DNA of 64,000 nucleotides from Pseudomonas lalkuanensis (lineage in GTDB: Bacteria > Pseudomonadota > Gammaproteobacteria > Pseudomonadales > Pseudomonadaceae). Each line of letters begins with the position of its first letter. The first letter of the stretch is position 1. The stretch covers positions 1,716,001 to 1,780,000 of the forward strand of contig NZ_CP043311.1 of the NCBI RefSeq assembly GCF_008807375.1, written 5' to 3'. Below, piece after piece: positions 18,751-60,754 of the stretch. Both the position numbers and the translations under genes were made by a program. Under the pieces are notes generated by a model that was given only the letters and a program-made list of their open reading frames with translations, made no database searches and was not told where the DNA came from.

Positions 18751-18907
18751 CGCCTTTGTTCCCCTCTCCCTTTGGGGCGAAGAGGCACGCTTTCGGGAGC
18801 ATCGCTTCCGGTGCCGATGAGCGACTGATCGCCAAGCGATCAGGCTGGGGCGCAGAGCGGGGGTAGGGGTGAGGGAAGTCCTGGCAAATCCTATTCCGAG
18901 ATCCGAC
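18751..18907. repeat. Intergenic repeat-like segment with hairpin
   Basis: Between the acyl-CoA dehydrogenase and synthetase genes. It opens with CCCCTCTCCCTTTGGGGCGA and ends with GGGGGTAGGGGTGAGGG, the two ends of a large imperfect palindrome of a kind common between Pseudomonas genes. Inside is a perfect hairpin CTGATCGC / GCGATCAG (18825-18832 and 18836-18843, loop CAA). Confidence 0.55.
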
Positions 18908-20992
18908 ATGAATCGAGACAACCTCAAGCGCCTGCTGGCGCCCCGGCACCTGGCCTTCATCGGCGGTCGCAGCATGGCCCGTGCCCTCAAGCGCTGCGCC
19001 GAAGGCGGCTTCGCCGGCCAGATGTGGCTGGTGAATCCGCAACACGCCGAACTGGAAGGCGTGCCCTGCGTGGCCAGTGTCGCGGACCTGCCGTGCGGGC
19101 CGGACGCGGTGTTCATCGCCACCAACCGTGAACAGACGCTGGACAGCGTCGCAGCCCTGGCCGCCAAGGGGGCAGGCGGGGCCATCTGCTACGCCTCCGG
19201 CTTCGCCGAAACCGGCGCCGAGGGCCAGGCCCTGCAGGCGCAATTGCTGGCAGCGACGGGTGACATGGCGCTGCTCGGACCCAACTGCTACGGCCTGCTG
19301 GACTACCTCCATGGCGCCGCCCTCTGGCCGGTGGCCCACGGTGGCCAACTGGTGGAGAAGGGCGTGGCTGTGCTCACCCAGAGCGGCAACTTCGCCTACA
19401 ACCTGTCCATGAGCGACCGCTCCCTGCCGATCGCCTACATGGCCTCGGTCGGCAACCAGGCCCAACTGGGCGTGGCTGAGTTGATGGACGTGCTGCTGGA
19501 TGAACCCCGCGTCACCGCCATCGGCTTGCACCTGGAAGGCCTGAAGAACGTACCGGGCTTCGCCCGCGCCGCGCACAAGGCCCTGGAGAAGGGCATCCCG
19601 ATCATTGCCTTGAAGACGGGCGTATCGCAGATAGGCGCCGAACTGGCCCTCAGCCACACCAGCTCCCTGGCCGGCTCCGATGCCCTGTACGACAGCCTCT
19701 TCGAGCGCCTCGGGGTGATCCGTGTCAGTGGCCCCGTGAGCTTCATGGAGACCCTCAAGGCCGCTGCCTGCGGCAAGCTGCCTGCCGGTCCCGGCCTGAT
19801 CGCCCTGGCCTGCTCCGGCGGCGATGCCGGCCTGATTGCCGACTACGCCGAGGTCAATGGCCTGCAACTGCCAAAGCTGGACGAAGGCCAACGCCACGAG
19901 CTGGCGCAGGTCCTGCCGGGTTACGCCAATATCGCCAACCCGCTGGACTTCACTACCGCTATCTGGGGCAACGGTGACGCCCTGGAACGCATGCTCGACA
20001 GCGCCCTGCGCAGCGCTGCCGATGCCGCGTTGCTGGTGCTGGACTATCCAGGGGAGGAAACCGGCGAGCGGCCCCAGTGCGATCTGCTGCTGGAGTTGTA
20101 TTGCGAAGCCCTGGCGCGTCATGGCAAGACCGGTTTCATTGCCTCGGCCTTCCCGGAACTGCTGCCGGAGTCCGCCCGCGAATACCTGCACGCCCGTGGC
20201 GTCGCTGCCTTGCAGGGCGTGGAGGACGGTCTGGCCGCCTGGGGCCGGATCGCCGCCTACAAGCAACGCCGTGAAGCTCTGCTGGCCCGGGGCGAGTCGG
20301 CCCTGGTGCCCCTGAGTCCATCGCCTCTGGCCGGTGGTGGGTTGCTGGATGAATGGCAATCCAAGCAGGCCCTGCGCACTTTCGGTCTTCCGGTTCCGCA
20401 AGCGCGGCTCAGTACGCCGGAACGGGCCGTGGAGGATGCCGGCCAGCTTGGCTACCCGCTGGTGCTGAAAGCCGTCAGCGCAGACCTGCCACACAAGACC
20501 GAGGCCGGCGCCGTGGCCCTCAACCTGCGGGATGCCGACGCCCTGCAACGGGCCCTGGGCGAAATGCGGCAACGCATTGCCGCCTACGCACCGGGCGTGG
20601 CCTTCGACCGGGTACTGCTGGAGCGCATGGCTACACCGCCACTCGCGGAGCTGATCGTGGGCGTCAAGCGCGAGGAAGGCTTCGGCCTGGCCCTGGTGAT
20701 AGGCGCTGGCGGCATTCTCGTCGAGTTGCTGAAGGACAGCCGCAGCCTGCTGCTGCCCACCAACGATGCCGCGATCCGCGATGCCTTGCTGAGCTTGCGC
20801 AGTGCGCCGCTGCTCACCGGCTTCCGTGGTCGCCCTGCAGCGGATCTGGACGCGCTGGTAGCCGCCGTTCGCGCGGTGGCCGACTACGCCAGCGAGAACG
20901 CTGGACGCCTGCTGGAGCTGGATGTGAATCCGCTGCTGGTCGGCGCCGACGGTGCCGTGGCGGTGGATGCGCTGATTCGGTTGGGTAAATGA
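18908..20992 (+). CDS. Acyl-CoA synthetase (NDP-forming), fused alpha-beta subunits
   Basis: A 694-residue enzyme of the acetate-CoA ligase (ADP-forming) superfamily. The N-terminal CoA-binding domain starts at KRLLAPRHLAFIGG; the succinyl-CoA-ligase-like domain has the phosphohistidine site ELALSHTSSLAGSD; the C-terminal ATP-grasp domain (about residues 470-694) contains GYPLVLKAVSADLPHKTEAG. The ATG at 18908 starts MNRDNLKRLLAPRH; no strong ribosome site is seen. It lies between the acyl-CoA dehydrogenase and aruI genes and would supply the CoA ester for the former. The acid substrate is unknown. Confidence 0.88.
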   Translation: MNRDNLKRLLAPRHLAFIGGRSMARALKRCAEGGFAGQMWLVNPQHAELEGVPCVASVADLPCGPDAVFIATNREQTLDSVAALAAKGAGGAICYASGFAETGAEGQALQAQLLAATGDMALLGPNCYGLLDYLHGAALWPVAHGGQLVEKGVAVLTQSGNFAYNLSMSDRSLPIAYMASVGNQAQLGVAELMDVLLDEPRVTAIGLHLEGLKNVPGFARAAHKALEKGIPIIALKTGVSQIGAELALSHTSSLAGSDALYDSLFERLGVIRVSGPVSFMETLKAAACGKLPAGPGLIALACSGGDAGLIADYAEVNGLQLPKLDEGQRHELAQVLPGYANIANPLDFTTAIWGNGDALERMLDSALRSAADAALLVLDYPGEETGERPQCDLLLELYCEALARHGKTGFIASAFPELLPESAREYLHARGVAALQGVEDGLAAWGRIAAYKQRREALLARGESALVPLSPSPLAGGGLLDEWQSKQALRTFGLPVPQARLSTPERAVEDAGQLGYPLVLKAVSADLPHKTEAGAVALNLRDADALQRALGEMRQRIAAYAPGVAFDRVLLERMATPPLAELIVGVKREEGFGLALVIGAGGILVELLKDSRSLLLPTNDAAIRDALLSLRSAPLLTGFRGRPAADLDALVAAVRAVADYASENAGRLLELDVNPLLVGADGAVAVDALIRLGK

Positions 20993-20998
20993 CGCTCT

Positions 20999-21064
20999 TG
21001 TAGGAGCCAGCTTGCTGGCGAAAGTCCGGCACACGGCCGTTCGCGAGCAGAGCTCGCTCCTACA
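20999..21064. repeat. REP-like intergenic repeat (copy 2)
   Basis: Starts TGTAGGAGCCAGCTTGCTGG and ends GAGCTCGCTCCTACA, with TTCGCGAGCAG inside; same family as 6168-6245 and 60782-60847. It fills the gap between the acyl-CoA synthetase gene and aruI. Confidence 0.8.
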
Positions 21065-21094
21065 GCTCTTGGCATCGATTCGAGGAGACACCTC

Positions 21095-22705
21095 ATGCAA
21101 CAGCAGAACACTCTCACTGGCGGCCAGGCCCTGGTCCGTCTGCTGGCCAACTACGGCGTGGACACCGTGTTCGGCATTCCCGGCGTGCACACCCTGGAGC
21201 TGTATCGCGGCCTGCCCGGCAGTGGCATCCGCCATGTGCTGACCCGCCACGAGCAGGGCGCCGGTTTCATGGCCGACGGCTACGCGCGGGTCAGCGGCAA
21301 GCCGGGCGTGGCGTTCATCATCACCGGCCCGGGCGTGACCAACGCCGCCACGCCCATCGGCCAGGCCTATGCCGATTCGATTCCGCTGCTGGTGATTTCC
21401 AGCGTCAACCACACCGCCAGCCTCGGCAAGGGATGGGGTTGCCTGCACGAGACCCAGGACCAGCGCGCCATCACCGCGCCCATCACGGCCTTCTCGGCTG
21501 TCGCCCTGACCCCGGAAGACCTGCCCGAGCTGGTGGCCCGTGCCTTCGCCGTATTCGATGGCGAGCGCCCGCGTCCGGTGCATATCTCGGTACCGCTGGA
21601 CGTGCTCGCCGCACCGGTGGCCCGTGACTGGACCTCCGAGGTGGTACGCCGTCCCGGCCGGGGCGTGGCCGATGGCGAATCCCTGGACGCCGCCGCCAGG
21701 CGGCTGGCGGCAGCCACGCGGCCGATGATCATTGCCGGTGGTGGCGCGCTGGACGCGGCCGGTGCCGTGCGGGCAATCAGCGAGCGCCTGGGCGCTCCGG
21801 TATTCACCAGCGTGGCCGGCAAGGGACTGTTGCCGCCGGATGCCCCGCTCAATGCCGGTGCCAGCCTTTGCGTGGCGCCGGGCTGGGAGATGATCGCCGA
21901 AGCCGACCTGGTCCTGGCCGTGGGCACCGAGATGGCCGATACCGATTTCTGGCGCGAGCGCCTGCCGCTGTCCGGCGAGCTGATCCGCGTCGATATCGAT
22001 CCACGCAAGTTCAACGACTTCTATCCCTGTGCCGTCGCGCTCAAGGGCGATGCCCGCCAGACCCTGGAGGCGCTGCTGCAACGTCTGCCGGAGACGGGCA
22101 GGGCAGGGCAGGCAGCCGCCGCCCGCGTCGCCCGGCTGCGAGAGGACATCCGCAACGGCCACGCGCCGCTACAGGGTATCCACCAGGCGATCCTCGACCG
22201 CATTGCCGCTGCCTTGCCGGCGGATGCCTTCATCAGCACCGACATGACCCAACTGGCCTACACCGGCAACTACGCCTTCGCCAGCCGGGCGCCGCGCAGC
22301 TGGCTGCACCCCACGGGCTACGGCACCCTCGGCTACGGCCTGCCGGCAGGTATCGGTGCCAAGTTCGGCGCACCGGAGCGGCCCGGCCTGGTGCTGGTCG
22401 GGGATGGCGGTTTCCTCTACACCGCGCAGGAGCTGGCGACCGCCACTGAGGAGCTCGACAGCCCACTGGTGGTGCTGCTGTGGAACAACGATGCCCTGGG
22501 CCAGATCCGCGACGACATGCTGGCCCTGGCTATCGAGCCGGTGGGCGTATTGCCGCGCAACCCGGACTTCGCCGGCCTGGCCCGTGCCTTCCATTGCGCC
22601 GTGAAGCAGCCCCGCAGCCTTGACGAACTGGAAGTCGACCTGCGCACAGGCTTCGGCCACCCCGGCGTCACCCTGATCGAACTGAAACATGCCTGTGCTC
22701 GCTGA
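21095..22705 (+). CDS. aruI: 2-ketoarginine (5-guanidino-2-oxopentanoate) decarboxylase AruI
   Basis: A 536-residue thiamine-diphosphate enzyme. The N-terminal Pyr domain has the catalytic Glu in RHEQGAGFMADGYARVSG; a central TPP_enzyme_M domain follows; the C-terminal PP domain has GDGGFLYTAQEL ... LLWNNDALG, the cofactor-binding GDG-x(24-27)-NN motif. AruI decarboxylates 2-ketoarginine to 4-guanidinobutyraldehyde in the arginine transaminase pathway. The assignment rests on family plus the adjacent aruH, 20 bp downstream. An acetolactate-synthase-like role is the alternative but does not fit the neighbours. Confidence 0.9.
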   Translation: MQQQNTLTGGQALVRLLANYGVDTVFGIPGVHTLELYRGLPGSGIRHVLTRHEQGAGFMADGYARVSGKPGVAFIITGPGVTNAATPIGQAYADSIPLLVISSVNHTASLGKGWGCLHETQDQRAITAPITAFSAVALTPEDLPELVARAFAVFDGERPRPVHISVPLDVLAAPVARDWTSEVVRRPGRGVADGESLDAAARRLAAATRPMIIAGGGALDAAGAVRAISERLGAPVFTSVAGKGLLPPDAPLNAGASLCVAPGWEMIAEADLVLAVGTEMADTDFWRERLPLSGELIRVDIDPRKFNDFYPCAVALKGDARQTLEALLQRLPETGRAGQAAAARVARLREDIRNGHAPLQGIHQAILDRIAAALPADAFISTDMTQLAYTGNYAFASRAPRSWLHPTGYGTLGYGLPAGIGAKFGAPERPGLVLVGDGGFLYTAQELATATEELDSPLVVLLWNNDALGQIRDDMLALAIEPVGVLPRNPDFAGLARAFHCAVKQPRSLDELEVDLRTGFGHPGVTLIELKHACAR

Positions 22706-22725
22706 GCACGGGCAAGGAGCTGAAC

Positions 22726-23916
22726 ATGCGCTTTTCCGACCTCACCCAACGCATTGCCGGCGACGGCGCGGCCGCCTGGAATATTCACTACCGCGCACTG
22801 GAGCGCCAGGCCCGGGGGGACGACATTCTCCTCCTGTCGGTAGGCGACCCTGATTTCGACACGCCGCAACCCATCATACAGGCCGCCATCGACAGCCTGC
22901 TCAACGGCAATACCCACTACTCCGATGTGCGTGGCAAGTTTCCCCTGCGGCAACGCATTGCCGCCTGGCACAACCAGCGCAGCGGGCAGAGCGTGGGTGC
23001 CGATCAGGTGGTGGTGCTGGCCGGCGCCCAGTGTGCGCTGTTCTGTGTGGTGCAGTGCCTGCTCAACCCGGGCGACGAGGTCATAGTCGCCGAACCCATG
23101 TATGTCACCTACGAGGCGGTGTTCGGTGCCTGTGGCGCCAAGGTGGTCCCGGTGCCGGTGCGTTCGGAGAATGGCTTCCGCATCCAGCCCGAGGATGTGG
23201 CTGCCGCCATCACCCCGCGCACTCGCGCGCTGGCCCTGAACAGCCCGCACAACCCCTCCGGCGCCAGCCTGCCGCGCTCCACCTGGAATGCCCTGGCCGA
23301 ACTCTGCATCGCCCATGACCTGTGGATGATTTCCGACGAGGTCTACAGCGAGCTGCTGTTCGAGGGCGAGCACATCAGCCCGGCCAGCCTGCCGGGCATG
23401 GCCGAGCGCACCGCGACCATCAACAGCCTGTCCAAGTCTCACGCCATGACCGGCTGGCGCGTGGGTTGGGTGGTCGGCTCGGAGGAACTGACCGGACACC
23501 TGGAAAACCTCGCCCTGTGCATGCTCTACGGCTCGCCTGACTTCGTCCAGGACGCCGCCTGCGTTGCCCTTGAAGCGCGACTTCCGGAGCTGGAAGCCAT
23601 GCGCGAGGCCTATCGCCAGCGGCGCGACCTGGTGTGCGCCACCCTCGAAGGTTGCCCCGGCCTGCGTGCGTTGAGGCCGGATGGCGGCATGTTCGTGATG
23701 GTGGACATCCGTGAAACCGGCCTGTCCGCCCAGGACTTCGCCGACCGCCTGCTGGACGACTACGGCGTCTCGGTGCTGGCGGGCGAGGCATTCGGGCCCA
23801 GCGCCGCGGGGCATATCCGCCTGGGGCTGGTGCTGGGCAGCGAGCCGCTGGAGGAAGCCTGCCGACGCATCGCCGGCTGCGCCGCCGCACTGATTGAGCT
23901 GCGAGCAATCGCATGA
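22726..23916 (+). CDS. aruH: Arginine:pyruvate transaminase AruH
   Basis: A 396-residue class-I aminotransferase. Family features: LSVGDPDFDTPQPI, the PLP-Asn/Asp segment NSPHNPSG, and the Schiff-base Lys in SLSKSHAMTGWRVGW. AruH transfers the alpha-amino group of L-arginine to pyruvate, giving 2-ketoarginine and alanine, the first step of the ATA pathway. The ATG at 22726 has AAGGAG upstream. It follows aruI closely, in the same order as P. aeruginosa PA4977-PA4976. Confidence 0.92.
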   Translation: MRFSDLTQRIAGDGAAAWNIHYRALERQARGDDILLLSVGDPDFDTPQPIIQAAIDSLLNGNTHYSDVRGKFPLRQRIAAWHNQRSGQSVGADQVVVLAGAQCALFCVVQCLLNPGDEVIVAEPMYVTYEAVFGACGAKVVPVPVRSENGFRIQPEDVAAAITPRTRALALNSPHNPSGASLPRSTWNALAELCIAHDLWMISDEVYSELLFEGEHISPASLPGMAERTATINSLSKSHAMTGWRVGWVVGSEELTGHLENLALCMLYGSPDFVQDAACVALEARLPELEAMREAYRQRRDLVCATLEGCPGLRALRPDGGMFVMVDIRETGLSAQDFADRLLDDYGVSVLAGEAFGPSAAGHIRLGLVLGSEPLEEACRRIAGCAAALIELRAIA

Positions 23917-24007
23917 ATGATGGTTGGCGCCGGGACCGGAAATCGCCATCGTCGGGTCCGGTAATGTCCAGCGCCAATCCGTGGCACATCCCGCACAAGG
24001 AATTCCC

Positions 24008-24709
24008 ATGAAAGTACTGATCGTCCATGCGCACCCGGAGCCGCAGTCGTTCTGCAGCGCCCTGCGCAACCTGGCGGTGGAAACCCTGCAGGGGCAGGGG
24101 CACGAAGTCCGCCAGTCCGACCTCCACGCGCTGGACTGGAACCCGGTGGCCAGCGCGGCTGATTTCGGCCAGCGGCAGAATCCGGATTACCTGGTCTATG
24201 CCCTGGAACAACGTGAAGGGGTCAAGGCCGGCGATATCGCGCCGGATATCCAGCGCGAGCTGGAGAAGCTGCTCTGGGCCGACCTGCTGATTCTCAACTT
24301 CCCGCTCTACTGGTTCTCGGTGCCGGCCATTCTCAAGGGCTGGATCGACCGGGTGCTGGTGTCCGGCGTCTGCTATGGCGGCAAGCGCTTCTATGACCAG
24401 GGCGGCCTGGCCGGCAAGAAGGCGCTGGTCACCCTGACCCTGGGCGGCCGCGAGCACATGTTCGGTGAAGGCGCCATTCATGGCCCGCTGGAAGACATGC
24501 TGCGTCCGCTGTTGCGCGGCACCCTGGCCTATGTCGGCCTGGATGTGTTGCCGCCTTTCGTGGCCTGGCACGTGCCCTATATCAGCAATGACGCGCGCCA
24601 GGATTTCCTGCGTGACTACCAGGCACGACTGCTGGGGCTGGACCAGGATGTGCCGCTCGCGTTTCCCCGGCTGGACCAGTTCGACGACAGGTTGTACCCA
24701 CTGGCGTGA
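24008..24709 (+). CDS. NAD(P)H dehydrogenase (quinone), flavodoxin-fold
   Basis: A 233-residue FMN/FAD flavoprotein of the NQO/MdaB type. The flavodoxin-like N-terminus KVLIVHAHPEPQSFCSAL, the NFPLYWFSVPAILKGWIDRV loop and LTLGGREHMF are family hallmarks. It reduces quinones by two electrons. The ATG at 24008 has AAGGA upstream. It is the last gene of the aru block, corresponding to PA4975 in gene order; its link to arginine catabolism is unclear. A clear terminator follows. Confidence 0.9.
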   Translation: MKVLIVHAHPEPQSFCSALRNLAVETLQGQGHEVRQSDLHALDWNPVASAADFGQRQNPDYLVYALEQREGVKAGDIAPDIQRELEKLLWADLLILNFPLYWFSVPAILKGWIDRVLVSGVCYGGKRFYDQGGLAGKKALVTLTLGGREHMFGEGAIHGPLEDMLRPLLRGTLAYVGLDVLPPFVAWHVPYISNDARQDFLRDYQARLLGLDQDVPLAFPRLDQFDDRLYPLA

Positions 24710-24720
24710 TGAGTGCAGCG

Positions 24721-24752
24721 AGGCCGCCCAAGGGCGGCCTTCTTCTTTTTCC
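24721..24752 (+). terminator. Rho-independent terminator after the aru block
   Basis: AGGCCGCC (24721-24728), loop CAAG, GGCGGCCT (24733-24740), then a T-rich tract TCTTCTTTTT. It closes the metabolic block before the flagellar promoter region. Confidence 0.9.
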
Positions 24753-24753
24753 G

Positions 24754-24791
24754 GTGGGAGCGAAATCATTCGCGAATGAATTCGCTCCCAC
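24754..24791. repeat. REP-like palindrome (GTGGGAGCGAA type)
   Basis: GTGGGAGCGAA (24754-24764) and TTCGCTCCCAC (24781-24791) are perfect 11-bp arms around ATCATTCGCGAATGAA. The same ends recur, less perfectly, at 27953-28049. Confidence 0.8.
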
Positions 24792-24803
24792 AACTCGTAC
24801 CCC

Positions 24804-24880
24804 CGGCAAAGCGGCAACCAGCGGCAAACCGCCCTTGCCGCTTTGCCGCCCTGCCAGCGCCTCTTGCCGCTTTTTGCCGC
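24804..24880. promoter_or_regulatory. Clustered GCGGCAA/TTGCCGC motifs upstream of flgB, candidate FleR enhancer
   Basis: GCGGCAA at 24811 and 24821 (10-base period) and its complement TTGCCGC at 24835, 24843, 24864 and 24874 (the last two also 10 bases apart), plus a partial CGGCAAA at 24804. The cluster lies 44-120 bases upstream of the RpoN promoter at 24924, where an activator of RpoN would bind. The same motif occurs as a dyad upstream of flgF. Confidence 0.6.
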
Positions 24881-24923
24881 TTGTTTTTCATTCAAAGCGT
24901 TGAAAATAAAGGAAAAACTAAAG

Positions 24924-24939
24924 TGGCACGGCCTTTGCT
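24924..24939 (+). promoter_or_regulatory. RpoN (sigma-54) promoter of flgBCDE
   Basis: TGGCAC (24924-24929), five bases, TTGCT (24935-24939): a perfect -24/-12 element, about 50 bases before the flgB start. Confidence 0.93.
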
Positions 24940-24987
24940 GAATGTCATGCAAGCAAAACCACATTGCCACTGGCAAAGGTTCCGGAC

Positions 24988-25395
24988 ATGAGCATCAGTT
25001 TCGAAAAGGCCCTCGGCATCCATCAGCAAGCCCTCAGCTTCCGCGCCCAGCGCGGCGAGGTGCTGGCCAACAACATCGCCAACGCCGATACCCCGAACTA
25101 CAAGGCTCGCGACCTGGACTTCGCCAGCGTGCTGGCCCAGCAGTCGGAGAAGGCCGCCCACGGCAGCTTCCAGGCCACCCGGACCAACGAGCATCACATT
25201 GCCGCCGAAGGTTTCGAGATCGCCGACGCCTCGCTGAAGTACCGCGTACCGTTCCAGGCCGCCATCGACCAGAACACCGTCGACGCCCAGCTGGAACAGT
25301 CGAACTACACCGAGAACGCCATGCAGTTCCAGGCCAGCTTCACCTTCCTCAACAGCAAGTTCAAAGGGCTGATGAACGCCCTGCGCGGCGAATAA
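24988..25395 (+). CDS. flgB: Flagellar proximal rod protein FlgB
   Basis: A 135-residue rod subunit. The rod/hook family signature is present near the N-terminus (LANNIANADTPNYKARD, residues about 26-42). No signal peptide, as expected for type III export. The ATG at 24988 (MSISFEKALGIHQ) is chosen; upstream in-frame ATG 24964 is closer to the promoter and less FlgB-like. First gene of the flgBCDE operon. Confidence 0.96.
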   Translation: MSISFEKALGIHQQALSFRAQRGEVLANNIANADTPNYKARDLDFASVLAQQSEKAAHGSFQATRTNEHHIAAEGFEIADASLKYRVPFQAAIDQNTVDAQLEQSNYTENAMQFQASFTFLNSKFKGLMNALRGE

Positions 25396-25409
25396 CGGAG
25401 AGCCCAGCC

Positions 25410-25856
25410 ATGTCCCTGTCCAGCATCTTCAACATCGCCGGCACCGGCATGAGTGCCCAGAACACTCGGCTGAACACCATCTCCAGCAACATCGCCAACG
25501 CCGAATCGGTGTCCTCCAGCCTCGACCAGACCTACCGCGCCCGCCATCCGGTGTTCGCCACCGTGATGCAGGACAGCCTGGGCAACGGCGACCGTGGTTC
25601 GCTGTTCGCCGACCAGGACCAGTCCGGCGCCGGCGTGCAGGTTCTCGGTGTGATCGAGGACCAGAGCACCCTGACCCCGCGCTACGAGCCGAACCACCCG
25701 GCGGCCAACGCGGACGGCTACGTCTACTACCCGAACGTGAACGTGGTTGAAGAGATGGCCGACATGATTTCCGCCAGCCGGTCCTTCCAGACCAACGTGG
25801 AAATGATGAACACCGCCAAACAGATGATGCAGAAAGTGCTGACCCTGGGTCAGTGA
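25410..25856 (+). CDS. flgC: Flagellar proximal rod protein FlgC
   Basis: A 148-residue rod subunit. It begins MSLSSIFNIAGTGMSAQ, with the rod-family segment NTISSNIANAESV and the C-terminal helix VEEMADMISASRSFQTNVEM shared by rod and hook proteins. It starts 14 bp after flgB with CGGAGAG upstream. Exported by the flagellar type III system and assembled on FlgB. Confidence 0.96.
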   Translation: MSLSSIFNIAGTGMSAQNTRLNTISSNIANAESVSSSLDQTYRARHPVFATVMQDSLGNGDRGSLFADQDQSGAGVQVLGVIEDQSTLTPRYEPNHPAANADGYVYYPNVNVVEEMADMISASRSFQTNVEMMNTAKQMMQKVLTLGQ

Positions 25857-25875
25857 TAGCGCGCGAGGGAACAGC

Positions 25876-26556
25876 ATGAGTGTCAGTAACGTAGCGTCCA
25901 CCGATGGCCAGTCGTTCCTCGACCAGTACGCCATCAAGAACGAACCCAAGAGCAAGGACCTCGGCAAGAACGAGTTCCTCGAGCTGCTGGTCGCCCAGTT
26001 GAACAACCAGGACCCGCTGGCGCCCCAGGAGAACGGCGAGTTCATCGCCCAGCTGGCGCAGTTCAGCCAGGTGGAAGGCATCGAGAAGCTGAACAGCAGC
26101 ATGGGTTCGCTGCTGTCCGGCTACCAGTCCTCCCAGGCACTTCAGGCCTCGTCCCTGGTGGGGCGCAAGGTCATCGTGCCCAGCGAGAAGGCCGTGGTGG
26201 ATACCGCGGAAACTTTCAAGGCCAGCGCCAATCTGCCCATTTCCAGCAGCAACGTCTGGGTCAACGTCTACGACAACGCCGGCACCTTGGTGAACCGCAT
26301 CAACCTCGGCGAGCAGCCGGCCGGCAGCGTCAGCTTCATGTGGGACGGCAAGGACTCCAGCGGCAAGGTCATGCCGCCGGGCACCTACAAGTTCGAAGCC
26401 CAGGCCCAGTACAGCGGCGAAACCAAAGCCCTCTACACCATGCTTCCGGCCAACGTCGACAGCGTCACCCTGGGCCAGAACGGCGGCGAGCTGATGCTCA
26501 ACCTCGCCGGCATCGGCAGTGTCGGTCTGTCCAAGGTCCAGGTCATCGGTCAGTAA
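25876..26556 (+). CDS. flgD: Flagellar hook-capping protein FlgD
   Basis: A 226-residue hook cap scaffold. The N-terminal export/capping region contains FLELLVAQLNNQDPLAP, the most conserved FlgD stretch; the rest forms the Ig-like/tudor core including VSFMWDGKDSSG. FlgD caps the growing hook and is replaced by FlgK. It lies 19 bp after flgC. Confidence 0.96.
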   Translation: MSVSNVASTDGQSFLDQYAIKNEPKSKDLGKNEFLELLVAQLNNQDPLAPQENGEFIAQLAQFSQVEGIEKLNSSMGSLLSGYQSSQALQASSLVGRKVIVPSEKAVVDTAETFKASANLPISSSNVWVNVYDNAGTLVNRINLGEQPAGSVSFMWDGKDSSGKVMPPGTYKFEAQAQYSGETKALYTMLPANVDSVTLGQNGGELMLNLAGIGSVGLSKVQVIGQ

Positions 26557-26601
26557 CCTCCCGGTCAAGAGCGCCGGGAAGCACCGGCAAAGGAGAAAGT
26601 A

Positions 26602-27939
26602 ATGGCGTTCAACATCGGTCTCAGTGGTCTGCGCGCAGCGACCAGCGACCTCAACGTCACCGGCAACAACATTGCCAACGCCGGCACTGCGGGCTTCAAG
26701 CAGTCCCGTGCCGAGTTCGCCGACGTCTATGCCGCCTCGGTGCTTGGCACCGGCAAGAACGCCCAGGGTAGCGGCGTGGCTTTGGGGGACGTGTCCCAGC
26801 TGTTCAACCAGGGCAACATCAACTACACCCAGAATGCCCTGGACCTGGCCATCAACGGCAACGGCTTCTTCCAGACCAGCAACAACGGCGAGATCAGCTA
26901 CACCCGCGCCGGTTACTTCGGTACCGACCGCAACGGCTACATCGTCAACAACTTCGGCTATCGCCTGCAGGGCTACGGCATCGACGGCAATGGCAACGTC
27001 CAGAACGGCGTAGTCAGTGATCTGCAGATCCAGACCTCCAACCAGGCGCCCAAGGCCACCACCGAAGTCGCGCAGAAGTTCAACCTGAACTCCACCACCA
27101 AGGCGCCGACCAATACGCCGTTCGATCCGAGCGACCCGACGACCTACACCTCGTCCACCTCGGTCAACATCTATGACTCCCAGGGCAACGCCCACGTCAT
27201 GACCCAGTACTTCATCAACAACTCGGACCCGGCCGCTACCCCGCCGGTGACCAACAACTGGACCATGGCCGTGCTGGTGGATGGACGCAATCCGTCCAAC
27301 CCGGCCAGCACCGACCCGCACACCACCAACCTGCTGTTCAACGCCGACGGCAGCCTGAACACCGCCGGCATGGCGGCGGGTGGCGAGCTGAACTACGACC
27401 CCGCCACCGGCCTGATGAACCTCGACGACTGGGTGCCCGCGGTTTCCGACGGCGGTACTCCGGCCAACTGGTCGTCCAACGGCGCCACCGCCAACGCCGG
27501 CGGCATCAGCGTCGATATTCGTGGCTCCACCCAGTACTCCAGCGCGTTCGCCGTCAACAGCATCAGCCAGGACGGCTACACCACCGGTCAACTGGCAGGC
27601 CTGGAAATCGACGACACCGGTGTGATCTTCGCCCGCTACACCAACGGCCAGTCCAAGGTGCAGGGCCAGGTGATCCTCGCCAACTTCGCCAACGTCCAGG
27701 GCCTGACGCCGGTAGGCAAGACCGGCTGGGTGCAATCGTTCGAGTCCGGTGAGCCGGTGGTCGGCACCCCGCGTTCCGGCACCCTGGGTGCCTTGCAGGC
27801 CGGCGCGCTGGAAGATTCCAACGTCGAACTGTCGGACCAACTGGTGAACCTGATCGTCGCCCAGCGCAACTACCAGGCGAACGCCAAGACTATCCAGACC
27901 GAAGACGCCGTCACCCAAACCATCATCAACCTCCGCTGA
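26602..27939 (+). CDS. flgE: Flagellar hook protein FlgE
   Basis: A 445-residue hook subunit. The N-terminal family motif NVTGNNIANAGTAGFKQSR and the C-terminal helix LSDQLVNLIVAQRNYQANAK form the D0 coiled coil; the Asn/Thr-rich middle forms the exposed D1-D2 domains. AAGGAG precedes the ATG. It ends the flgBCDE operon, before a 328-bp gap. Confidence 0.96.
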   Translation: MAFNIGLSGLRAATSDLNVTGNNIANAGTAGFKQSRAEFADVYAASVLGTGKNAQGSGVALGDVSQLFNQGNINYTQNALDLAINGNGFFQTSNNGEISYTRAGYFGTDRNGYIVNNFGYRLQGYGIDGNGNVQNGVVSDLQIQTSNQAPKATTEVAQKFNLNSTTKAPTNTPFDPSDPTTYTSSTSVNIYDSQGNAHVMTQYFINNSDPAATPPVTNNWTMAVLVDGRNPSNPASTDPHTTNLLFNADGSLNTAGMAAGGELNYDPATGLMNLDDWVPAVSDGGTPANWSSNGATANAGGISVDIRGSTQYSSAFAVNSISQDGYTTGQLAGLEIDDTGVIFARYTNGQSKVQGQVILANFANVQGLTPVGKTGWVQSFESGEPVVGTPRSGTLGALQAGALEDSNVELSDQLVNLIVAQRNYQANAKTIQTEDAVTQTIINLR

Positions 27940-27952
27940 TAAATAGACTGCC

Positions 27953-28049
27953 TGTGGGAGCGATTTCAATCGCGAAGCAGGTCGAAGACCTGCCCGTCTG
28001 AGGCCTGGGCCGGCTGCGCCGGCCGATCGCGAATGAATTCGCTCTTACG
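27953..28049. repeat. REP-like element after flgE
   Basis: Starts TGTGGGAGCGATTTCAATCG and ends CGCGAATGAATTCGCTCTTAC, sharing ends with 24754-24791. The interior holds a second hairpin, GGCCGGCTGCGCCGGCC at about 28008-28024. Longer and less symmetric than the other copies. Confidence 0.7.
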
Positions 28050-28077
28050 AGAAGCAAGCCGGGAAAGCGTTTCCCAA

Positions 28078-28122
28078 GCGGCAAATCCCCTTGCCGCTGG
28101 CGGCATCCCCTCGCCGCCAGCG
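28078..28122. promoter_or_regulatory. GCGGCAA-N6-TTGCCGC dyad upstream of flgF, candidate FleR enhancer
   Basis: GCGGCAA (28078-28084) and TTGCCGC (28091-28097) form a perfect 7-bp dyad, followed by a degenerate second copy (GCGGCAT at 28100, TCGCCGC at 28111). The arms CGCTGGCGG (28095) and CCGCCAGCG (28114) also pair. It lies about 80-125 bases before the flgF RpoN promoter and matches the cluster before flgB. Confidence 0.6.
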
Positions 28123-28129
28123 CTTTGAC

Positions 28130-28157
28130 AAGGCCCTTCAGTGGGCCTTTTTCTTTT
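28130..28157 (+). terminator. Rho-independent terminator of flgBCDE
   Basis: AAGGCCC (28130-28136), loop TTCAGT, GGGCCTT (28143-28149) followed by TTTCTTTTC. Placed between the flgE-side repeat and the flgF promoter. Confidence 0.85.
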
Positions 28158-28202
28158 CTAAAGAATCCTTTAATTCAATGTCTTGCGATTGAACTTCGGC
28201 GT

Positions 28203-28218
28203 TGGCATGGCGCTTGCT
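28203..28218 (+). promoter_or_regulatory. RpoN (sigma-54) promoter of flgFGHIJKL
   Basis: TGGCAT (28203-28208), five bases, TTGCT (28214-28218). One mismatch to consensus. It lies 50 bases before flgF, the same spacing as the flgB promoter to its gene. Confidence 0.9.
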
Positions 28219-28267
28219 GCATAGCAGGCAAAGAGCCAAGGGCGGCAACGCCCACTCGGAGAGATTC

Positions 28268-29011
28268 ATGGACAAGATGCTTTATGTCGCGATGAGCGGG
28301 GCCAGCCAGAACAGCCTGGCCCAGCGTGCTCATGCCAACAACCTGGCGAACATCTCGACCTCCGGTTTCCGTCGCGACTTCGAACAGGCGCGCTCCATGC
28401 CGGTGTTCGGCGACAGCTTTCCGTCGCGGGTCTATGCCATGACCGAGCGGCCCGGCACTGACTTCACTCCCGGCGCCCTGCAGGAAACCGGTCGTGACCT
28501 GGACGTGGCCATCGAAGGGGAGGGCTGGATTGCCGTTCAGGCCCCCGACGGCGGCGAAGCCTATGTGCGCACCGCCAGCCTGCAGATTGATGCCCTTGGC
28601 CAGCTCCGCACCGGCAATGGTTTGCCGGTCATGGGCAATGCCGGTCCCATCGCCATTCCGCCGGAGCAGAAAGTCGAGATCGGCCAGGACGGCACCATCA
28701 GCATTCGTGCTCTCGGCGAAGCCCCAAACGTGGTGGCCGAGGTCGACCGCATCAAGCTGGTCAATCCCGATCCCAAGCAGCTGGAGAAGGGCGCCGACGG
28801 CCTGATCCGGATCAAGGACCCGCAGCAGGCGGTGCAGGCCGACGCCAATGTCCGCGTGACTTCCGGCTTCATCGAAGCCAGCAACGTCAACGCCGTGGAA
28901 GAGATGACCGCGATCCTCTCGCTGTCCCGCCAGTTCGAGCTTTCCGTGAAGATGATGCGTACCGCCGAAGACAATTCTTCGGCAATGGCGCGGGTCTTGC
29001 AGTTCAGCTAA
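28268..29011 (+). CDS. flgF: Flagellar proximal/distal rod protein FlgF
   Basis: A 247-residue rod subunit starting MDKMLYVAMSGASQN. The N-terminal rod motif is ANNLANISTSGFRRDF; the C-terminal helix contains NAVEEMTAILSLSRQFELSV. CGGAGAG lies upstream of the ATG at 28268; an earlier in-frame start at 28202 would fall inside the promoter and is rejected. First gene of the second rod-hook operon. Confidence 0.96.
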   Translation: MDKMLYVAMSGASQNSLAQRAHANNLANISTSGFRRDFEQARSMPVFGDSFPSRVYAMTERPGTDFTPGALQETGRDLDVAIEGEGWIAVQAPDGGEAYVRTASLQIDALGQLRTGNGLPVMGNAGPIAIPPEQKVEIGQDGTISIRALGEAPNVVAEVDRIKLVNPDPKQLEKGADGLIRIKDPQQAVQADANVRVTSGFIEASNVNAVEEMTAILSLSRQFELSVKMMRTAEDNSSAMARVLQFS

Positions 29012-58108: not shown

Positions 58109-58126
58109 ATGGAGCGAGAGAAGAGC

Positions 58127-59332
58127 ATGAGCCACGCCGTAATCCCCGCACAGAATCCGGAATCCGCCCAAGCCGAGCAGGCCAGCCGCGCTGGTCTTGA
58201 ACAGGCCTTCGCACTGTTCAACCAGATGTCGACCCAGCTCAGCGAGTCCTACAGCATGCTGGAGGCGCGGGTCACCGAGTTGAAGGGCCAACTGGCCCTG
58301 GTCAGTGCCCAGCGCATGCAGGAGCTGGCGGAGAAGGAACGCCTCGCCAACCGCCTGCAGAGCCTGCTGGACCTGCTGCCTGGCGGTGTCATCGTGATCG
58401 ATGGGCAGGGCGTGGTGCGCGAAGCCAACCCCGTGGCGCGCAGCCTGCTTGGCCAGCCCCTGGTGGGCATGCTCTGGCGCGAAGTGATCGCCCGCAATTT
58501 CGCCCCGCGCGAAGACGACGGTCATGAAATCTCCCTCAGGGATGGCCGCCGGGTTTCCATCGCCACCCGCTCCCTCCATGGCGAGCCCGGCCAACTGATA
58601 CTGCTCAATGACCTGACGGAAACCCGTCGCCTGCAGGATCAACTGGCCCGCCACGAACGGCTTTCCTCCCTCGGGCGCATGGTTGCGTCCCTGGCCCACC
58701 AGATCCGCACGCCGCTATCCGCCGCCTTGCTCTATGCCAGCCACCTGGCAGAGCAGGTGCTGCCCACCGAGCAGCAGCAACGCTTCGCCAGCCGGCTCAA
58801 GGAACGCCTGCACGAGCTGGAGCACCAGGTGCGTGACATGCTGGTATTCGCCCGTGGCGAGCTGCCGCTGCCGGATCGCCTGGCGCCGTCCGCACTGTTC
58901 ACTGCACTGCGCGCCTCGGCGGAATCCCACCTCGAAGGCAGGCAGGTGCGCTGGCAGTGCGACCTCTCCGCGGGCGAGCTGCTGTGCAATCGCGACACGC
59001 TGGTCGGCGCGATGCTCAACCTGATCGAGAACGCCAACCAGGCCGCCGGCCGCGACCTGCTCCTGAAGGTTCATCTCTACAAGCGCGGGGGAGACCTGCG
59101 CTTGACCATCAGCGACAACGGCCCGGGCATCGACGCCGCCACCCTGGCGCGCCTGGGCGAACCCTTCTTCACCACCAGGACCACCGGTACCGGACTGGGA
59201 CTGGCGGTGGTCAAGGCGGTGGCGCGTGCCCACCGGGGCGAGCTGCAGCTGCGCTCGCGTCCGGGCCGTGGCACGTGCGCCACCCTGGTCCTGCCGCTGA
59301 TTCCCGCGGCGCAGTCGGTTACACAGGAGTAA
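58127..59332 (+). CDS. fleS: Flagellar sensor histidine kinase FleS
   Basis: A 401-residue cytoplasmic kinase with no transmembrane segment. An N-terminal coiled coil and PAS-like domain (about 75-170, LLPGGVIVIDGQGVVREANP) lead to HisKA with phosphoacceptor His in SLAHQIRTPLSAAL, and HATPase_c (TTGTGLGLAVVKAVARAHRG). It phosphorylates FleR to turn on rod and hook operons. The ATG at 58127 is chosen by the ribosome site GAGAGAAG; the frame is open 18 bases further. Confidence 0.96.
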   Translation: MSHAVIPAQNPESAQAEQASRAGLEQAFALFNQMSTQLSESYSMLEARVTELKGQLALVSAQRMQELAEKERLANRLQSLLDLLPGGVIVIDGQGVVREANPVARSLLGQPLVGMLWREVIARNFAPREDDGHEISLRDGRRVSIATRSLHGEPGQLILLNDLTETRRLQDQLARHERLSSLGRMVASLAHQIRTPLSAALLYASHLAEQVLPTEQQQRFASRLKERLHELEHQVRDMLVFARGELPLPDRLAPSALFTALRASAESHLEGRQVRWQCDLSAGELLCNRDTLVGAMLNLIENANQAAGRDLLLKVHLYKRGGDLRLTISDNGPGIDAATLARLGEPFFTTRTTGTGLGLAVVKAVARAHRGELQLRSRPGRGTCATLVLPLIPAAQSVTQE

Positions 59333-59338
59333 AGGACG

Positions 59339-60754
59339 ATGACTGCCAAAATTCTGCTGGTCGAAGATGACCGCGCCCTGCGTGAAGCCCTGGCGGACAC
59401 CCTGATGATCGGCGGCTATGACTACCGCGCAGTGGATTGCGCCGAGGCCGCCCTGGTGGCGCTGGGTGAGGAGTCCTTCGGACTGATGGTGAGCGACGTC
59501 AACATGCCGGGCCTGGACGGTCACCAGCTGCTGGCCATCGTCCGCCAGCGCTACCCGCAGCTCCCGGTGCTGCTGATGACTGCCTTCGGGGCTGTCGAGC
59601 GCGCGGTGGATGCCATTCGCCAGGGCGCCGCCGATTACCTGGTCAAACCCTTCGAGCCCAATACCCTGCTGGAGCTGGTGGCGCGTCATGCACTGGGTCG
59701 CGTGAGCCGGGCCGTCGGTGACGGTCCGGTGGCCCTGGAGCCGGCCAGCCGGCAGCTGCTGGAGCTGGCCGCACGGGTCGCGCGTAGCGACTCCACCGTG
59801 TTGATCTCGGGCGAGTCCGGTACCGGCAAGGAAGTGCTGGCGCAGTACATCCACCAGCAATCGACTCGCGCCAATGGCCCCTTCATCGCCATCAACTGCG
59901 CGGCCATTCCGGACAACATGCTCGAGGCGACCCTGTTCGGCCACGAGAAGGGCGCTTTCACCGGCGCCATCGCCAGCGCGCCGGGCAAGTTCGAGCTGGC
60001 CGACGGCGGCACCATCCTGCTCGATGAAATCTCCGAAATGCCCCTGGGCCTGCAAGCCAAGCTGCTGCGCGTGCTGCAAGAGCGTGAAGTGGAGCGAGTG
60101 GGCGCGCGTCGTCCCATCAGCCTGGATATCCGCGTGCTCGCCACCACCAACCGCGACCTTGCCGGTGAAGTGGCGGCGGGGCGTTTCCGTGAAGACCTCT
60201 ATTACCGCCTCTCGGTCTTCCCCCTGGCCTGGCGCCCGCTCCGGGAGCGTCCGGCAGACATCCAGCCCCTGGCCGAGCGCCTGCTCGCCAAGCACGTCAA
60301 AAAAATGAATCACGCCGCCGTGCGCTTCTCCGCCGAAGCCCAGGCCGCGCTGCTGGCCCATGCCTGGCCGGGCAACGTGCGTGAACTGGACAACGCCGTG
60401 CAGCGCGCGCTGATCCTGCAGCAGGGCGGGGTGATCCAGCCCCACGATCTGTGCCTGACCGCGCCGATCGGCATGGCCATCGCGCCCGCCGCGCCAGCGT
60501 TCGCTGCCATGCCGGTGTCCGCGCCGGTGGTGCCGCTGCCGACGGCCGCTGCGCCCGCCGAAGCACCCGGTGCCCTGGGCGATGATCTGCGCCGCCACGA
60601 GTTCCAGATGATCATCGACACCCTGCGCTCGGAGCGTGGCCGCCGCAAGGAAGCCGCCGAGCGCCTGGGGATCAGCCCGCGCACCCTGCGCTACAAGCTG
60701 GCCCAGATGCGTGACGCCGGCATGGACGTGGAGGCTTACCTCTACGCCAGCTGA
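59339..60754 (+). CDS. fleR: RpoN-dependent response regulator FleR
   Basis: A 471-residue NtrC-type regulator: receiver with Asp53 in VSDVNMPGLDG, AAA+ domain with GESGTGKE and GAFTGA, and Fis-type DNA-binding helix-turn-helix (EAAERLGISPRTLRYKLAQM). A flexible Ala/Pro linker (about residues 370-405) precedes the DNA-binding domain. It follows fleS by 6 bp. In P. aeruginosa FleR activates flgBCDE and flgFGHIJKL. Confidence 0.96.
   Translation: MTAKILLVEDDRALREALADTLMIGGYDYRAVDCAEAALVALGEESFGLMVSDVNMPGLDGHQLLAIVRQRYPQLPVLLMTAFGAVERAVDAIRQGAADYLVKPFEPNTLLELVARHALGRVSRAVGDGPVALEPASRQLLELAARVARSDSTVLISGESGTGKEVLAQYIHQQSTRANGPFIAINCAAIPDNMLEATLFGHEKGAFTGAIASAPGKFELADGGTILLDEISEMPLGLQAKLLRVLQEREVERVGARRPISLDIRVLATTNRDLAGEVAAGRFREDLYYRLSVFPLAWRPLRERPADIQPLAERLLAKHVKKMNHAAVRFSAEAQAALLAHAWPGNVRELDNAVQRALILQQGGVIQPHDLCLTAPIGMAIAPAAPAFAAMPVSAPVVPLPTAAAPAEAPGALGDDLRRHEFQMIIDTLRSERGRRKEAAERLGISPRTLRYKLAQMRDAGMDVEAYLYAS

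Follow-up and report, generated by a model that had tools for sequence, protein, structure and literature searches.

Putative FleR operators upstream of the flgB and flgF rod-hook operons in Pseudomonas lalkuanensis

The window, that is the whole 64,000-nucleotide stretch of DNA that we analysed, contains two rod-hook operons, starting with flgB and flgF, and the genes fleS and fleR. At both operons, copies of the half-site GCGGCAA (TTGCCGC on the opposite strand) lie upstream of a -24/-12 promoter:

24811..24880, no strand assigned: candidate flgB enhancer with six exact half-sites (GCGGCAA at 24811 and 24821; TTGCCGC at 24835, 24843, 24864 and 24874)
24890..24902, plus strand: IHF-like site between enhancer and flgB promoter, one mismatch to WATCAANNNNTTR, read from the sequence
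24924..24939, plus strand: flgB sigma-54 -24/-12 promoter (TGGCACGGCCTTTGCT), an RpoN-type site
24988..25395, plus strand: flgB, the gene that opens the first rod-hook operon (TIGR01396, E 1.5e-42)
28078..28097, no strand assigned: flgF distal dyad GCGGCAA-N6-TTGCCGC, whose spacing differs among species
28100..28117, no strand assigned: flgF proximal box GCGGCATCCCCTCGCCGC, of the CGGNR-N6-YGCCG type, from sequence and cross-species comparison
28130..28158, plus strand: terminator-like hairpin with a T-rich run, lying past flgE and separating the box from the flgF promoter, read from the sequence
28173..28185, plus strand: IHF-like site between enhancer and flgF promoter, one mismatch, read from the sequence
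28203..28218, plus strand: flgF sigma-54 -24/-12 promoter (TGGCATGGCGCTTGCT), an RpoN-type site
28268..29011, plus strand: flgF, the gene that opens the second rod-hook operon (NF009280, E 1.7e-115)
58109..59332, plus strand: fleS, a PAS histidine kinase by its domains, named from its position and the initial annotation
59339..60754, plus strand: fleR, presumed reader of the box, with a receiver, a sigma-54 activator domain and a Fis-type HTH (residues 418-456)

The copies and spacings that the initial annotation had read at flgB and flgF are all present. The flgB array spans -126 to -63 relative to the G of the -12 element, is flanked on its upstream side by a CCGGCAA near-copy (24803-24809) and contains no canonical 18-bp box CGGNR-N6-YGCCG. 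The motif is real and a chance origin very unlikely: positions 24710-24987 hold six copies, against a dinucleotide-shuffle mean of 0.26, and none of 2000 shuffles reached six, while 27940-28267 hold three (mean 0.21), a number reached in 2 of 2000 shuffles. These three include the GCGGCAA at 28242, which we rejected as an upstream site, as a hairpin predicted in the leader carries it in its loop; a script search turned up GNRA-type hairpins in just 2 of 28 flgF leaders.

Throughout the 6.06-Mb genome, GCGGCAA-N(4-8)-TTGCCGC occurs at six places, namely flgB, flgF, two window open reading frames (20566 and 22947) and two sites elsewhere. A scan of the entire window for at least two half-sites within 40 bp returned the first four only and found no cluster before fliD, fleS or fliE, in line with the earlier statement that the other RpoN promoters lack one. 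The direct repeat TTGCCGC-N(0-30)-TTGCCGC has 22 matches in the genome versus 7 in the control, and four of the matches listed lie at flgB. The dyads at 20566 and 22947, both perfect and 18 bp long, are each part of a stretch encoding RQRIAA, and the two genes concerned are apparently unrelated. All six relatives that keep the peptide at 20566 also keep the dyad, and two of the four that keep it at 22947 have lost the dyad; we set both aside as a presumed coding coincidence.

Conservation upstream of flgB and flgF in many genomes had been proposed as a check, and the motif passes it. In Pseudomonadaceae, 132 of 141 flgB loci and 68 of 80 flgF loci have the half-site ahead of the promoter, the latter count excluding leader sites (in 36 of the 80 flgF loci a copy lies past the -12 element). 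GCGGCAA is the 7-mer with the highest count upstream of flgB (132/141 loci, 7.7 expected), where it ranks second by excess behind the overlapping AGCGGCA, and is first upstream of flgF (73/80 loci, 5.2 expected). The motif is not confined to Pseudomonas, being found in other families of the class Gammaproteobacteria as well. In 148 genomes GCGGWAA-N4-TTGCCGC has 75 matches, 66 of them within 400 bp upstream of flgB.

The unit conserved most often is the 18-bp dyad CGGNR-N6-YGCCG, present at 111 of 141 flgB and 68 of 80 flgF loci. After redundancy reduction it occurs in 46 of 57 flgB and 24 of 28 flgF promoters, whereas any other spacer is found in at most 11 and 5, respectively, and shuffles give about 0.1. 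At flgF the initial annotation had singled out a perfect dyad and a degenerate second copy. Both exist, but it is the supposedly degenerate copy (28100-28117) that represents the conserved unit; GCGGCAA-N6-TTGCCGC was discarded as the core, its spacing ranging from N5 to N7 and its presence extending to fewer promoters. Half-sites recur at positions with a period of about 10.5 bp and share one common phase at flgB and flgF, which 0 of 5000 shift controls reached. The dyads are in helical phase upstream of a -24/-12 promoter, as in sigma-54 enhancers; a within-promoter distance test is weak at flgF, where some random placements exceed the observed value. IHF-like sites are enriched in the same promoters, with 40 of 57 at flgB versus about 7% of shuffles and 16 of 28 at flgF versus about 8.6%.

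Control promoters look different, contrary to the equal presence that would have spoken against the earlier reading. Half-sites occur in 10 of 80 control regions (fleQ 1/21, fleS 4/21, fliE 3/18, fliD 2/20), and 11 of 18 flhA regions have one, always single, seven of the eleven lying more than 300 bp from the start and four at -29. The box is missing at fleQ (0/21), fleS (0/21), fliE (0/18) and fliD (0/20) and appears once at flhA (1/18), giving 1 of 77 for the last four promoters together. Further, previously unused loci (15 FlgB loci kept out of earlier counts) have the half-site at 15 of 15 and the box at 13 of 15 flgB promoters; at flgF the half-site is found in 8 of 10 and the box in only 3 of 10, so that some lineages lack it there. 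Apart from this flgF result and the single flhA sites, the box marks FleR-dependent promoters and is all but absent from FleQ-only ones.

The motif also travels with FleR, albeit with exceptions in both directions. In Pseudomonadaceae, 51 of 52 genomes with FleR have the half-site, as opposed to 1 of 9 without, the one being from genus g11. At class level the half-site is found in 24 of 33 genomes with FleR versus 1 of 7 without, leaving nine FleR genomes with no exact copy; the box alone (12/33 versus 1/7, p = 0.39) does not separate the two groups. One FleR genome (G116) has a one-mismatch box and no exact half-site at flgB, and another genome (G171) has the site and no FleR match. The FleR DNA-binding domain has its best NCBIfam match in FlbD (36.1 bits; next 19.7), and a PDB search with it gave no match up to E 0.1.

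Our computation establishes the motif together with its conservation, its geometry and phase, its specificity for certain promoters and the fact that it occurs alongside FleR. Conservation, control promoters, co-occurrence and the FlbD-like domain together favor the initial annotation's idea of a FleR enhancer, and we consider it very probable that FleR, an NtrC-type response regulator, uses the flgB and flgF motifs as operators acting as enhancers from upstream, an assignment made from sequence. Literature passages describe the rod-hook genes of P. aeruginosa as FleR-dependent, and one of them, citing a preprint, has FleR binding the flgB and flgF promoters (PMC8335546). According to the same source, the fliC promoter is a further binding target of FleR, which also controls its own expression; the box does not cover all reported targets, being absent at fliC (0/18, from 18 flagellin starts located in 21 sequences) and fleS.

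It is improbable that FleQ rather than FleR binds the motif. For P. fluorescens F113 and P. putida KT2440, ChIP-seq is reported to give FleQ peaks at both flgB and flgF (PMC6120874), and the single flhA half-sites would suit FleQ, yet the box is nearly absent from fleS, fliE, fliD and flhA, and half-sites are uncommon at the first three. Moreover, the FleQ consensus sequences given in that source, GTCaNTAAAtTGAC and GTCAaAAAAtTGAC, do not resemble the motif, and FlbD is not among the listed matches of the FleQ DNA-binding domain, unlike that of FleR. We give equally little credence to another reader, such as CzcR or an unknown regulator gained and lost together with FleR. In a P. aeruginosa EMSA, CzcR bound the flgB, flgF and PA1442 promoters and not those of flhA, fliC, fliD or fliE (PMC9769499). 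Against this, the FlbD-type half-site fits the FlbD-type domain of FleR, the motif's distribution follows FleR, and nine stretches of 20 kb each that lie downstream of fleR, unannotated but expected to include the PA1442 (fliM-flhB operon) region, hold no half-site cluster. A repeat, terminator or composition artefact is most improbable: both regions are GC-rich, intergenic and adjacent to REP-like palindromes and terminators, and the dyads can fold, but the shuffle controls, the phase relative to -12, the preferred spacer, the contrast with control promoters and the presence in other families all speak against it.

With FleR as the reader, we infer that its dimers would contact the 18-bp boxes and the adjoining GCGGCAA half-sites, bound on one face of the helix at a distance of about 60-145 bp from -12 on its upstream side. 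IHF bending at about -45 would loop the DNA and help a FleR oligomer to contact the sigma-54 holoenzyme bound at -24/-12; by hydrolysing ATP, FleR would then open the promoters of the rod-hook operons starting with flgB and flgF. If confirmed, the box would be a concrete, testable switch sequence for the rod-hook gene sets. So defined, it would make the class III flagellar checkpoint mappable, mutable and predictable across Gammaproteobacteria, and would distinguish the targets of FleR from those of FleQ.

NtrC-type upstream activator sites with an IHF bend have the same arrangement of upstream dyads, IHF site and -24/-12 promoter, with a half-site that differs from the one here. The FlbD system is alphaproteobacterial, and a 2005 study by Correa and Klose is said to have dealt with Vibrio FlrC enhancers. 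Where rod-hook genes are concerned, FlrC is described as corresponding to FleR (PMC7064773). The Caulobacter ftr elements read by FlbD, CCCGGCA-N5-TGCCGGG, share the CGGCA half-site and dyad arrangement at sigma-54 flagellar promoters (PMC3333781), and among NCBIfam models FlbD is the activator that comes nearest to FleR in its DNA-binding domain. Because N6 is preferred here over N5, we call the element ftr-like and do not class it as ftr; FlbD is also apparently not kinase-controlled (PMC3930126), unlike the FleR system. The Desulfovibrio regulator DVU1063 has GGCA-N4-TGCC, a dyad that shares the GGCA core and likewise precedes flagellar genes, but with a shorter spacer, many targets and a distant lineage (PMC3333781). 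We see an even chance that a single ancient CGGCA rod-hook operator is what FlbD, DVU1063, FleR and probably also FlrC recognise, its dyad spacer having been retuned by lineage (N4, N5, N6), and that in the genus of the window the flgB enhancer was rewritten as a half-site array about one turn apart, so that the same activator would work on two enhancer geometries per genome.

A FleR motif exists from HT-SELEX in P. syringae, where the source names fliE and fliH as targets (PMC7532196), which weighs against our reading. None of the passages covered by our literature search spells out a FleR or FlrC site, though such a box may have been published before in one form or another. No further clusters occur in ten stretches of 20 kb from flagellar neighbourhoods (L230-L239, including the nine downstream of fleR). 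Six of 20 fleR-region loci (L175, L177, L180, L182, L183 and L185) contain one cluster each.

Upstream of both rod-hook operons, every half-site (GCGGCAA or TTGCCGC) and dyad that the initial annotation had proposed as a candidate FleR enhancer was located in the window. The flgB intergenic stretch holds six half-sites (shuffle mean 0.26; six reached in 0 of 2000 shuffles) and the flgF stretch three, a count reached in 2 of 2000 shuffles. A cluster scan of the whole window returned only these two regions and two dyads within open reading frames. Coordinates of sites in the window:

24811-24880, six exact half-sites upstream of flgB
28100-28117, 18-bp box (CGGNR-N6-YGCCG) upstream of flgF
20566-20583 and 22947-22964, identical perfect 18-bp dyads GCGGCAACGCATTGCCGC in two neighbouring, apparently unrelated coding genes

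The perfect dyad, GCGGCAA-N(4-8)-TTGCCGC, occurs at six places in the whole genome and at 49 across 18 genomes of the genus. Of the 49, 25 lie at flgB or flgF, from 15 of the 18 genomes (G003 has no place at all, G008 and G013 only places elsewhere), and 10 are of the coding type seen here, which encodes RQRIAA. We take the two coding dyads as coding coincidence, despite retention of the first (20566-20583) by all six relatives that retain the peptide. Immediately 5' of both enhancers lie REP-like palindromes of the GTGGGAGCG...CGCTCCCAC type (24754-24791 and about 27954-28049), and flgB is directly preceded by non-flagellar genes common to part of the genus (18869-24709: a PLP aminotransferase, an NAD(P)H oxidoreductase-like gene and a large ORF).

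The motif is conserved throughout Pseudomonadaceae. We assembled 141 regions upstream of flgB (80 contigs, the best 80 of 588, 60 further family genomes and the window; 137 distinct), a set weighted toward a few genera, and 80 usable flgF loci (intergenic stretch >100 bp; 78 distinct), the other 61 being left out mostly because flgF was not located 3' of flgE inside the locus. GCGGCAA occurs in 132/141 flgB regions against 7.7 expected from mononucleotide shuffles, the top count among all 7-mers and by excess second to the overlapping AGCGGCA, and in 73/80 flgF regions against 5.2, where it ranks first; among distinct sequences the counts are 128/137 and 71/78. Between -170 and -45 of the -12 G, at least one site is found at 132/141 flgB and 68/80 flgF promoters, and at least two at 122/141 and 51/80. 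The box is present at 111/141 and 68/80. In a separate test set of fifteen further FlgB loci (L215-L229), flgB carries the half-site in 15/15 and the box in 13/15; flgF, usable in ten, carries them in 8/10 and 3/10, and the box at flgF is therefore lineage-dependent. In many loci, such as L033, L036 and L044, flgF was not found within about 5 kb 3' of flgB, and the two operons may lie apart there.

Apart from single half-sites at flhA, the control promoters rarely share the motif. Across 21 genomes (20 and the window), at least one half-site occurs at flgB in 20/21 and at flgF, leader included, in 16/19, and at fleS in 4/21, fliE in 3/18 and fliD in 2/20; fleQ (1/21) is counted apart because the fleQ gene is not known to be a FleQ target itself. 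Within the window's genus, flhA has single half-sites within 400 bp in 11/18, seven of them beyond -300 and four at -29. The only box among these controls and fliC is at flhA (1/18; fleQ 0/21, fleS 0/21, fliE 0/18, fliD 0/20, fliC 0/18).

The arrangement of the sites was examined at 57 flgB and 28 flgF promoters remaining after removal of sequences >60% identical, with a weak sigma-54 score or with <150 bp upstream. Half-site centres peak near -61, -70, -79, -89, -100, -111, -122 and -132, with mean vectors at a 10.5-bp period of 0.50 (flgB) and 0.65 (flgF), matched at either promoter in 0/5000 per-promoter random shifts, and with almost equal phase (3.9 and 3.5 bp). Distances within promoters repeat the period clearly at flgB (0.29; null 0.03, sd 0.05, maximum 0.26) and more weakly at flgF (0.48; null 0.02, sd 0.14, maximum 0.57). 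When the spacer of CGGNR-Nk-YGCCG was varied, k = 6 occurred in 46/57 flgB and 24/28 flgF promoters, other spacers in at most 11 and 5, and shuffles gave about 0.1. In 37 flgB dyads selected by their right half, TTGCCGC, GCGG(A/T)AA predominates on the left. A search of 148 genomes for GCGGWAA-N4-TTGCCGC gave 75 matches, of which 66 (from 65 genomes) lie no more than 400 bp 5' of flgB and nine elsewhere, against 29 matches for the reversed control pattern; GCGGWAA-N4-TTGCCGC is present in only 1/18 genus genomes. The window is itself atypical in layout: its flgF carries the box, and at its flgB the half-sites form an array together with an N7 dyad. Allowing at most one mismatch to the IHF consensus between -75 and -15, IHF-like sites occur in 40/57 flgB promoters (6.9% of shuffles) and 16/28 flgF promoters (8.6%), starting most commonly at -44 and -43.

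Which protein reads the motif is indicated by its distribution. FleR was searched for in 148 family genomes, and a looser search of ten of those lacking a match recovered a partial FleR in two, one split at a contig end. Of the family genomes sampled for flgB, 51/52 bearing FleR have the half-site there, against 1/9 without it (genera g3, g7, g10, g11 and g17), absence in two of the nine being judged at E 1e-150 only. In g10 and g17 the sigma-54 promoter is also missing at flgB, and only four of the nine are therefore strict tests; these two genera (L145-L147, L163-L164), with flgE-flgF gaps of 13-17 bp and no FleR match, have a differently regulated flagellum. The FleR HTH is well conserved wherever FleR was found; the search rows for G005, G045, G091, G144 and G147 show one in-frame stop in fleR. 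For the last 57 residues of FleR the best NCBIfam model is FlbD (36.1 bits; next 19.7), which is absent among the NCBIfam matches of the corresponding region of FleQ, and the FlbD site is given, in the part of the source used, as CCCGGCAxxxxxTGCCGGG (PMC3333781). The motif belongs to the known class of sigma-54 enhancers and has a half-site like that of FlbD; we infer with high confidence that FleR is its reader.

The same half-site extends beyond the family. Across 40 genomes of other families, mainly the better-scoring of 118 class genomes with FlgB, GCGGCAA again ranks first among 7-mers upstream of flgB: of the 32 genomes that have a sigma-54-like site there, 23 carry it against 1.2 expected, with frequent positions around -83 and -104. 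FleR (E <=1e-95) was found in 33/40; a half-site lies within 300 bp of flgB in 24/33 genomes with it against 1/7 without (p = 0.007), and the box alone in 12/33 against 1/7, not significant (p = 0.39), both p values being a guide only, as related genomes count as independent.

In the sections of published work drawn on here, the rod-hook genes require FleR (PMC7064773, PMC3930126), which is reported, from a preprint, to bind the flgB, flgF and fliC promoters (PMC8335546); other reports place FleQ (PMC6120874) and CzcR (PMC9769499) at flgB and flgF as well. A FleR matrix exists from HT-SELEX in P. syringae, with fliE and fliH as named targets (PMC7532196), and in P. fluorescens FleR overexpression restores motility without FleQ (PMC10482368). 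As these excerpts describe them, the box leaves unexplained that FleQ-independent rescue, the binding at fliC and FleR's own control.

GCGGCAA copies also occur downstream of -12 in 36/80 flgF loci. In the window, a hairpin GGGCG-GCAA-CGCCC (fold z -2.2) is predicted in the flgF leader at 28240-28253, just 5' of the start.
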